Shown: positions 2,378-5,255 of the stretch, one piece after another
How positions within the stretch are numbered: position 1 is the stretch's first letter
Layout: every line of letters begins with the position of its first letter
Virus record (IMG/VR): IMGVR_UViG_3300021085_000103
Location: 1-35,452 of that record
Strand: one strand, 5' to 3'
DNA: 35,452 bases
Source: a virus
Notes under the pieces: model-generated
Database searches by the model: none
Told to the model about the DNA's origin: nothing
What the model saw: the letters and a program-made list of their open reading frames with translations, nothing else
Made by a program: the position numbers and the translations under genes

Positions 2378-2707
2378 ATGATTGTTTTTACAGTAATATT
2401 GTGTTTTTGCGTTGTGGTTTTTGGGTCTTACACTTGGTGGTCTGCCAGAAATTGCATGAATAAGAGCCATTTGTCGCACTTGTCTGCGATGGAGTCCGTT
2501 GTTAGGTCTAAAGAGTATCATGAGGCTGGTAATGAAATGTTTAATAAGTCGATAGATTCATATAAAGAAGGTCAGCAATTTTGGGCGGCTGCTACTGAAG
2601 CTTTGCTGGATGCTAAAAGGCGTGAACGTGAAGTCGATAACGTGTTGGAGGATCTAAAGGCTAATTCATTATTGCCTATAGATTACAAGACAGGAGAGGC
2701 CGCGTGA
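2378..2707 (+). CDS. Small membrane-anchored protein with helical tail
   Basis: This is a 109-residue protein. Residues 1-22 are strongly hydrophobic (IVFTVILCFCVVVFGSY) and read as an N-terminal membrane anchor. The rest is charged and helical, with coiled-coil character in DAKRREREVDNVLEDL. No family is recognised. Its stop overlaps the GTG of the ParB-like gene by 4 bp. A membrane role in the early region is unexplained. Confidence 0.55.
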   Translation: MIVFTVILCFCVVVFGSYTWWSARNCMNKSHLSHLSAMESVVRSKEYHEAGNEMFNKSIDSYKEGQQFWAAATEALLDAKRREREVDNVLEDLKANSLLPIDYKTGEAA

Positions 2708-3867
2708 ATTATTTTGAGCTAATTGATATTGCCAAAATTGCGCCATTGGAGAGCAATCCAAGGAAGAATTTTGATACTAGATCATTGGATGAATTATGTT
2801 CCAGTATTAAGGAGCATGGTATTATTCAGCCTCTAGTGGTTCGTCATTCAGCCCTTGTTGAAGGTAGCTATGAGTTGGTGGCGGGTGAACGGCGATGGCG
2901 TTGTGCTAGGAAATTAGAACTGGTGCAGTTGCCTTGCATGATACGCAATCTGGATGATTTAGAGGTGGCTGAGATTCAGTTGATCGAGAATATAGATCGC
3001 CATAATTTAGATCCTTTAGAGGAAAGTAGTGGTGTTTGCCGATTAGTTGAACTTGGTGTCCATCCAAGCGACTTAGCTGAAAGGCTTGGTCGGGCGGAGG
3101 ATTGGGTTCAGTTGCGGTTAGATTTACCAGAACTGCCCGATATGGCTAAGGATGCTTTGACTAATGGTGTCCTGGGTCTTGGAGGGGCTAGGCAGTTGCT
3201 GAGAGTTGATCAGGGTATGCGTGAGGAGGCAACACAGCGTTTGTTGGAAATAGAATCGCCTCTTACGGAGAGAACTGTTAGTGAGGTATTGCGCAATCGT
3301 TATCATGAGCCACGGCGTAGGCGTGAGCTTTGGAAGTCATTGAGGCAACCTATGCTTGTCAAATTCGCTGGTAATGCAACTCCTATTGATGATGTTGAGA
3401 AAAGCTATCAATATGTTCGTGCTTGGGGTGCTGGTATTGGTCATTTTTTTAATGTTGATGATGAAGTTGGTGGTCTTTCAAGGCATCCGGCGGAGTCTGT
3501 TGTTAGCTGGGGTGATTTAGCTCTTCAACATGATGTCCCGACATTATTGGTATGTGCTGGTGGTGTTATAAGTATCGATAATGTGGTCGAGGTTGTTGAT
3601 CGTAGGATTATAATAGATGCGGAAAGGGCTTTGAGGGATCAAGGTAAGTCTCATACCCTTGGCCCACGTAAAACAGTTGTTAAAGATGAGTTGAATGATG
3701 TCGGTGTTGTTGATGGTGATGCCGAGCAAGATTATGATGAGACTGCTGATCAATTTGTTGTCAGGCATGTGATGTCGGCGTTAGAGTTGAGGCATGATGA
3801 TGTAGAGCTTGCTGAACTTCTCATGCCTGTATTGGAGCTTATGGCAGAAAGGGGGGTAGGTGAATGA
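2704..3867 (+). CDS. ParB/Spo0J-like protein
   Basis: This 387-residue protein uses a GTG start with a GGAG ribosome site. The N-terminal ParB domain is clear: NPRKNFD (about 18-24), HGIIQPLVVR, the CTP/phosphate-binding GERRWR (about 61-66) and ENIDRHNLDPLEE, followed by the HTH-like LAERLGRAEDWVQLRLDLPEL. ParB proteins bind centromere sites and partition plasmids, and many phages use the fold in regulation or as a nuclease-like enzyme. No ParA is present in the window, so plasmid-type partition is not supported. The C-terminal 180 residues are unrecognised and acidic. It overlaps the methyltransferase start. Confidence 0.8.
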   Translation: MNYFELIDIAKIAPLESNPRKNFDTRSLDELCSSIKEHGIIQPLVVRHSALVEGSYELVAGERRWRCARKLELVQLPCMIRNLDDLEVAEIQLIENIDRHNLDPLEESSGVCRLVELGVHPSDLAERLGRAEDWVQLRLDLPELPDMAKDALTNGVLGLGGARQLLRVDQGMREEATQRLLEIESPLTERTVSEVLRNRYHEPRRRRELWKSLRQPMLVKFAGNATPIDDVEKSYQYVRAWGAGIGHFFNVDDEVGGLSRHPAESVVSWGDLALQHDVPTLLVCAGGVISIDNVVEVVDRRIIIDAERALRDQGKSHTLGPRKTVVKDELNDVGVVDGDAEQDYDETADQFVVRHVMSALELRHDDVELAELLMPVLELMAERGVGE

Positions 3868-4408
3868 GTTGGTATTACCTGAAGGCGAAGTCACAGAACT
3901 TGCGCTCTTCGCGGGAGCTGGAGGAGGCATCCTTGGTGGAAGTATGCTGGGGTGGCGAACCGTGGCTGCAGTCGAAATCGAAGACTATCCAAGGAGGGTT
4001 TTGCTACAACGGCAAGCTGACGGATTGCTACCTCGATTCCCTATCTGGGATGACGTTCGCACATTCAATGGATATGAATGGCGAGGGAAAGTTACAGTTG
4101 TCAGCGGAGGATTCCCATGCACAGACATCAGTGCCGCAGGAAAAGGTGCTGGAATCGAAGGAGAGCAATCTTCCTTGTGGAGAAGTATGGCGAGAATCAT
4201 ACATGAAGTTCAGCCGAAATTCTGCTACCTTGAGAACTCACCGCTCCTTGTTTCCAGAGGTCTTGGAAATGTCCTCTCAGATTTATGCCAAATGGGGTAT
4301 GATGCAAAATGGGGTATTATGGGAGCGCATCACGTTGCCGCTCCCCACAAAAGAGATCGTATCTGGATTTTGGCGTACCCCAGAGTGTGCGAAGGGGGGG
4401 ACAGTTAG
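3860..4408 (+). CDS. C5 cytosine methyltransferase, catalytic part (motifs I-VIII)
   Basis: This is a 182-residue protein from the GTG at 3860. It shows motif I LFAGAGGG (16-23), motif IV GGFPCTDIS with catalytic Cys at about 87, motif VI ENS (normally ENV) and motif VIII HKRDRIWI (163-170). It ends before the target-recognition region and motifs IX-X. Those motifs are found in the overlapping +1 frame, so an active enzyme probably needs both polypeptides, as in the two-subunit enzymes M.AquI and M.EcoHK31I. Codon choice differs from its neighbours: Gly is mostly GGA rather than GGT and third bases are rich in A and C, as expected for dual coding. It may protect phage DNA from host restriction. 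Confidence 0.85.
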   Translation: MNELVLPEGEVTELALFAGAGGGILGGSMLGWRTVAAVEIEDYPRRVLLQRQADGLLPRFPIWDDVRTFNGYEWRGKVTVVSGGFPCTDISAAGKGAGIEGEQSSLWRSMARIIHEVQPKFCYLENSPLLVSRGLGNVLSDLCQMGYDAKWGIMGAHHVAAPHKRDRIWILAYPRVCEGGDS

Positions 4409-5255
4409 TATGCAAGTCTTAGATGAAATGGCGGGTGGTAATTGGAAAAGGAAGTCTGGACATATGAGACAACTAAGGTTGCAAGATCAGGTCAGGCATG
4501 AGGGTTTATGGCCGAAGTATTGGTTGACCCCCACATGTGTTAATGTTGAGCCAACTGAGGAAAGGCGCGAAAGTCGTAGGGAGTTTAGGCATAGTATCGG
4601 TAGAAATGATTCTCCCGGTTGTCTTGCTGAACAGGTCGCTGTTGAAAGTTTTTGGCCTACTCCTACATGTCAGGAGACTGAGCATCCAAACGCCGTTATC
4701 AATAAAAATGGTCGGCGTGTATCGGTCGATGGTAATTCTGATCACAGTCTGAATTTAGCGGATTCTGTTAAGACTTGGCCTACGCCTAGGTCTAGGGATT
4801 GGAAAGGTTGCAATTCTGTTGAGGGCTTAACGCGATCTGATGGTAAGTCGCGCATGGATGCTTTGCCTAATGCTGTAGCATTTCCAGATTATGTTACTCC
4901 TAGGGTTGGCGGAGAAGAAAGTTTTGAGTCAGTGTCTAAGCGTAAAGGTGAAGCCGCGGCTGGAACTCATAATACTTTGTCTAGTGTTGAAAAAGAGCAT
5001 GGCAAGCAAGAGGGACAGCTTTCTCCTGATTGGACAGAGTGGTTAATGGGTTGGCCTGTTGGTTGGACGCGCATGGAGCCATTGGCTGATTATGATTGTC
5101 GTGATTGGCTACTAGATCCCGCTGAAGATGTTGAGGATCCTGTTGCTCGCGTGGGCAAAGGGATAGCTGATAGGAATAGTCGTTTGAAGGCTATTGGTAA
5201 TGGGCAAGTTCCTTTGTGTGCTGCTGTGGCTTTTAAAATTCTTATAAGCGAATAA
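3864..5255 (+). CDS. Overlapping-frame methyltransferase partner (TRD and motifs IX-X)
   Basis: This frame is +1 to the catalytic gene and stays open for 463 codons. The possible starts are the ATG at 3864, which shares the AAAGGGGGG ribosome site, or the ATG at 4050. From about residue 62 it resembles a known phage methyltransferase-associated family: AQTSVPQEK, then KWGMMQNGVLW (143-153), repeated W-x-TP elements (FWRTPE, WLTPT, FWPTPT, TWPTPRSRDWKG), WLMGWPVGWT and motif X-like RLKAIGNGQVP (440-450). The KWGMMQNG part lies opposite motifs VI-VIII of the other frame, so both frames carry conserved protein over the same bases. It probably supplies target recognition. Confidence 0.75.
   Translation: MSWYYLKAKSQNLRSSRELEEASLVEVCWGGEPWLQSKSKTIQGGFCYNGKLTDCYLDSLSGMTFAHSMDMNGEGKLQLSAEDSHAQTSVPQEKVLESKESNLPCGEVWRESYMKFSRNSATLRTHRSLFPEVLEMSSQIYAKWGMMQNGVLWERITLPLPTKEIVSGFWRTPECAKGGTVSMQVLDEMAGGNWKRKSGHMRQLRLQDQVRHEGLWPKYWLTPTCVNVEPTEERRESRREFRHSIGRNDSPGCLAEQVAVESFWPTPTCQETEHPNAVINKNGRRVSVDGNSDHSLNLADSVKTWPTPRSRDWKGCNSVEGLTRSDGKSRMDALPNAVAFPDYVTPRVGGEESFESVSKRKGEAAAGTHNTLSSVEKEHGKQEGQLSPDWTEWLMGWPVGWTRMEPLADYDCRDWLLDPAEDVEDPVARVGKGIADRNSRLKAIGNGQVPLCAAVAFKILISE

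Follow-up and report, generated by a model that had tools for sequence, protein, structure and literature searches.

The window analysed here, a stretch of 35,452 nt forming a 35-kb viral record (IMG/VR record IMGVR_UViG_3300021085_000103), very probably encodes one orphan phage C5 methyltransferase as two chains, each with its own start, in reading frames that overlap. It also holds ParB-like, D5-type primase, terminase, portal, tape-measure, and integrase genes, a gene content that marks the phage as tailed and probably temperate. A first-pass annotation of the same DNA had claimed that C5 methyltransferase motifs are spread over two overlapping frames with real dual coding, and this claim holds: the 545-nt overlap is open, homologues conserve both frames there, and the comparisons below support true dual coding by a two-polypeptide C5 enzyme.

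Organization of the two frames

ORF A (alpha, the catalytic frame; 3860–4408, plus strand, 182 aa) starts with GTG and carries motifs I–VIII. It matches the Pfam DNA_methylase family PF00145 (E 8e-27, residues 15–173, motifs I–VIII), phrog_363, and, in the PDB, M.HhaI over residues 16–173. Its translation gives motif I as FAGAGGG (3908–3928), motif IV as GGFPCTDIS (4106–4132, with the catalytic Cys codon at 4118–4120), and motif VIII as HKRDRIWI (4346–4369); motif VI (4232–4240) reads ENS, which is the consensus of the A group in our set of 32 representatives, whereas most C5 enzymes have ENV. The motifs that define PF00145, namely I, IV (PC), VI (EN-), and VIII, thus follow one another in A in that order, as the first-pass annotation had read them from 3860–4408, and A ends about 12 codons past motif VIII. 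At its N-terminus (3860–3895), the window A has an insertion, NELVLPEGEVTEL, where its relatives read NELALF; both frames and both starts are preserved.

ORF B (beta, the recognition frame; 3864–5255, plus strand, 463 aa) lies in the +1 frame, its ATG 4 nt after the A start. It matches phrog_1008, “DNA methyltransferase” (E 1e-28), and no Pfam or NCBIfam model; PHROGs keeps A and B in separate families. In the window, B is made of four parts. The B-core (4176–4382, about B residues 105–173) lies opposite A motifs VI–VIII and is conserved beyond the constraint imposed by A. It is followed by the recognition region with its W-x-TP (WPTP) repeats (4383–5018), which is single-coding, frame A being stop-rich there, and has a codon usage like that of the other genes. 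Next comes a divergent motif IX, LSPDWTEWLMGWPVGWT (5019–5069), with near-invariant columns (E392, W393, M395, G396, W397, P398, W401, and T402 of A1), and, finally, the motif X region, VARVGKGIADRNSRLKAIGNGQVPLCAAVAFKIL (5142–5243), which scores 54 bits against a profile of motif X as nested relatives encode it in frame A. Motif X is thus in frame B in the window, as against frame A in most relatives. The remaining features of PF00145, a variable region (the WPTP repeats), a divergent motif IX, and motif X, are therefore all found in B. An open frame at 3864–5255 with W-x-TP and RLKAIGNGQVP had already been noted; the frame stands, with the refinement that RLKAIGNGQVP is motif X and that a divergent motif IX precedes it. 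The frame-A string LDAHGAIG* opposite B motif IX was considered as a decayed motif X and rejected, as its profile score was 2.3 bits and 89/300 permutations of the B codons scored as high or higher.

A sequence search of the PDB with B gave no match, AlphaFold (AF2) models of B alone were poor (mean pLDDT of 48 and 58 for the window B and a compact B with 102 sequences, respectively), and Foldseek found no match for the predicted structure of B. We therefore base the reading that B supplies the small domain on motif order and selection rather than on structure.

The A/B locus is flanked by a ParB-like gene on one side and a primase gene on the other. The ParB-like gene (2704–3867, plus strand; ParB_N, E 5e-30) lies upstream and probably provides a co-translated context for A and B. 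According to the ORF list, its TGA, the GTG of A, and the ATG of B all overlap at 3860–3867, so that three frames are coding over those 8 nt. A single Shine–Dalgarno-like run, “aggggggtag”, precedes the A and B starts in the window. The modal spacing from the Shine–Dalgarno sequence is 4 nt to A and, hence, 8 nt to B, and the B ATG is at the equivalent place in 159/159 comparable loci, even where the start codon of A has shifted. No restriction enzyme was recognised among the window genes examined; the methyltransferase is therefore probably an orphan enzyme.

The dual-coding overlap (3864–4408, plus strand, 545 nt) has no stop in frame B. Recoding A with the codon usage of the phage gave a mean of 5.6 stops in that frame (P(none) 0.0013), and permuting the codons of A itself gave 3.7 (P(none) 0.004). 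Elsewhere in this phage, stretches of 182 codons mostly have 3–19 stops in their +1 frame, and one has a single stop. The codons of A are also peculiar, as the first-pass annotation had remarked in calling it GGA-rich for Gly among GGT-rich neighbours: GGT makes up 59% of Gly codons in the other genes and 57% in B beyond the overlap, against 17% in A, where GGA accounts for 54%.

Selection on both frames

Among 417 related loci, frame B is stop-free across motifs I–VIII in 396, whereas the third frame (frame C) averages about 8.5 stops per locus. The loci with B stops are mostly divergent ones, and in several of them, B opens later; of the 417, the 80 gathered by frame A alone have no B stop. 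Conservation was measured on 32 representatives (identity under 85%) against a codon-permutation null preserving both the protein and the codons of A: B had no stops where 89 were expected, and its conservation was 32 SD above the null. It was strongest at B codons 1–16 and 97–158 (z 10–21 for the latter) and weak at codons 17–96. In 57 close pairs, A-synonymous changes per possible change came to 0.083 in B codons 49–96 versus 0.031 in codons 97–128. The third frame was likewise above its own null, by 12 SD, an excess to be expected from constrained synonymous sites and related sequences, which makes the position of substitutions the cleaner test. By raw pairwise identity, B and the third frame could not be told apart (31–41% versus 31–39%), conditional tests alone distinguishing them, and codon-position comparison with the flanking genes was too noisy to be used by itself; the switch within the gene was used instead.

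This test rested on 28 close pairs, full-length and gapless. Substitutions at A positions 1, 2, and 3 amounted to 27, 10, and 63% over motifs I–VIII, 68, 16, and 16% over TRD–IX, and 22, 23, and 55% over motif X, the frame switch being highly significant (chi2 p~1e-63) and agreed on by 25/25 and 26/26 informative pairs. As A position 1 is B position 3, the constrained frame runs A, B, A along the gene, and most relatives, therefore, read one enzyme with motifs I–VIII in A, the TRD and IX in B, and X in A. Checking the conservation of each frame separately, as had been proposed with the first reading, thus placed the constraint in frame A over motifs I–VIII and in frame B over the TRD and IX; an overlap conserved in one frame alone, which that reading had named as its refutation, was looked for across homologues and not seen. 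On this comparative evidence, both frames are shown to be translated and selected, the function-bearing frame changing from one to the other over the length of the gene.

Phage C5 methyltransferases made as one chain (M.HhaI fold) are homologous to A over motifs I–VIII; canonical single-chain enzymes differ in that their one chain includes motif IX and their +1 frame has stops at the chance level. In the four canonical C5 genes used as controls, observed and expected stops were 12 vs 13.2, 18 vs 14.4, 14 vs 15.1, and 17 vs 15.3, and the search from the canonical enzyme L199 gave one locus. Searches through B motif IX and through the B-core found no standalone B lacking A: A overlaps in the −1 frame by at least 200 nt at 75/80 genome loci retrieved by B motif IX, and 79/80 viral loci retrieved by the B-core have the +1 overlap with A.

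Relatives and variants

Both frames are fully open, with B starting at the same place, in phages of Pseudomonas, Acinetobacter, Vibrio, Salmonella, Klebsiella, and Microcystis. In distant relatives from Mycobacterium, Paenibacillus, Bacteroides, Porphyromonas, and Synechococcus, B is shorter or more divergent, yet recognisable, and retains the TP-repeat and NPxWVEWLMGFPxGWT-like elements. Public annotation gives the recognition frame only, as a “hypothetical protein”, in L001 (PP083311.1) and L003 (MG592600.1), the catalytic frame being missed; both frames are annotated in Paenibacillus phage Bloom (gp56/57) and in Mycobacterium phage Koreni (gp77/78, with a late B start).

The nested layout, with motif X in A, motif IX in B, and B stop-free, is found at 316/417 loci. 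Motif X in B characterises a scattered, recurrent minority, including the window, where A stops after motif VIII and B has the TRD, IX, and X. The nearest relative of the window (L013, 78%) has the nested form, and placing the loci with motif X in B on the tree of A requires 17 changes, at least 8 of which are forced by well-supported branches. Some of these loci may be contig frameshifts; in the window, L018, L039, L133, and others, a single indel does not account for the arrangement, in which IX and X are separated by additional residues and frame A is interrupted by stops.

In L213 (1135–3324), an Actinomycetota MAG, one 730-aa ORF joins A (I–VIII), the B-core, the WPTP repeats, IX, and X without any overlap. 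A B-core model built without L213 gives it a modest 12.7 bits, the maximum of 1000 shuffles being 5.4, and this evidence of fusion comes from one MAG contig. L213 does not have the N-terminal segment of B, which suggests that this segment may serve in the docking of separate chains.

Other arrangements were observed as well. Third-frame HNH-endonuclease-like ORFs lie between B motifs IX and X in L173, L174, and L183 (about 3219–3614) and in L181 (about 3267–3731), frame B remaining open through the insert, so that three frames are apparently in use. They resemble the ShiLan element, one of the out-of-frame HNH insertions that likewise cause a frame overlap inside a phage methylase gene (PMC11855218); the ShiLan case differs in that it concerns a mobile insert and no second methyltransferase subunit. 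The TRD and motif IX stay in frame A in L143, L144, L020, and L044, with motif X in the third frame and B shortened; as the pairs each come from different metagenomes, these may be genuine variants and not errors in the contigs. L221 (1527–3414) is apparently split in three: A, then a B-core joined to the WPTP repeats, and further downstream an ORF of its own for IX and X. The related contigs L438 and L260 have a frameshifted look.

Proposed enzyme and alternative explanations

Two-polypeptide C5 enzymes are already known, M.EcoHK31I and M.AquI among them, and the first-pass annotation had invoked both; the comparison is apt for function, while the motif partition of the window equals neither exactly. 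In M.EcoHK31I (YGGCCR), beta lies inside the alpha gene in a different frame. M.AquI (CYCGRG) is not known to have a 545-nt overlap with a conserved domain. The nested relatives, with X in A and IX in B, share the layout described for M.EcoHK31I: most of them have motif X on the catalytic chain and, of the two motifs, IX only on the small one, unlike the window, which is not nested, since A ends after VIII and B has motif X. In M.EcoHK31I, motif IX is on the small chain and motifs I–VIII are on the large one, which is also predicted to carry the TRD (PMC3404938), whereas constraint assigns the TRD to B here. The large subunit of M.AquI has motifs I–VIII and its small subunit the distal variable region with IX–X (PMC3404938), and the window resembles this description in that A has I–VIII and B IX–X; it differs in that the variable region of M.AquI is divided between the chains and all the WPTP repeats of the window are in B. 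Our best reading is, thus, a two-subunit C5 methyltransferase with an M.EcoHK31I-like overlap and an M.AquI-like motif partition. Such a model is plausible given the known two-polypeptide enzymes and the complementation between enzyme fragments (PMC3404938; PMC5944983), which is described for C5 fragments split near VIII/TRD (PMC3404938).

Chain A would bind AdoMet and provide the catalytic cysteine, and chain B would contribute the region for target recognition together with motif IX and, in the case of the window, motif X as well. DNA methylation would need the association of A and B, the heterodimer, its activity, and its 5mC product being predicted from sequence. A single ribosome-binding site is probably shared by the two starts, which lie 4 nt from each other, and the likely biological role would be to shield phage DNA from host restriction.

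Three alternatives deserve attention. The complete motif order I–VIII, TRD, IX, X would also result, in a window-type arrangement, if ribosomes shifted by +1 from A to B past motif VIII in a programmed way, giving one functional chain, and the fusion in L213 indicates that a single chain is viable. We nevertheless find this very improbable, as it leaves unexplained both the selection on B upstream of motif VIII and the invariant B ATG, and nested relatives would need a second shift back to A for motif X; the ATG invariance in 159 loci and the modal spacings of 4 and 8 nt make separate initiation the likelier mechanism. A second possibility is that A alone is functional in the overlap, the openness of B being a by-product of the A protein and base composition and B starting near motif VIII. 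Consistent with this are the stronger constraint on A over motifs I–VIII (63% of changes at A position 3), the late B start annotated in Mycobacterium phage Koreni (gp77, 26-nt overlap), and the weak conservation of B codons 17–96. It is rendered very improbable by B exceeding permutation nulls conditional on A, by the depletion of A-synonymous changes in the B-core, by the invariant ATG, and by L213, which retains the B-core without overlap.

The division of motifs between frames and the few related contigs that look frameshifted (L438 and L260) could, finally, point to a single methyltransferase gene broken by a frameshift, either a pseudogene or a contig error, with the second frame as its downstream half. 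We give this virtually no credence: the same 545 nt are open and conserved in both frames at hundreds of loci, including isolate phages, and the A, B, A pattern of substitution positions refutes it for the family. An indel would leave two halves side by side rather than about 180 codons that are shared and selected in both frames, so the earlier argument that a single indel is insufficient was borne out. The two separately initiated chains, thus, remain our preferred reading.

We lean, with some hesitation, towards a broader scenario in which phage C5 methyltransferases include a large and old class for which dual-frame coding is obligatory: the B-core would have been born by overprinting on motifs VI–VIII, selection would run A, B, A, and the window would represent a partial escape, one among several independent ones, with motif X transferred to B. 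We found no paper on the breadth of this layout, on codon-level proof or frame-switching constraint, or on the window-type combination, which is weak evidence of novelty, as most subscription journals lay outside the search. What the comparison brings is a codon-level demonstration that a single enzyme can occupy two frames that overlap, the frame under constraint changing where one domain gives way to the next. The two-frame layout recurs in hundreds of further phages and prophages, whose records often annotate one frame; many records, therefore, describe half an enzyme, as do those of Pseudomonas phage phPA-G and Vibrio phage 1.236, with the recognition frame only, and cloning such methyltransferases as single genes would be expected to fail. 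With members that are nested, partly separated, or fused, the family offers a tractable case for studies of overprinting.
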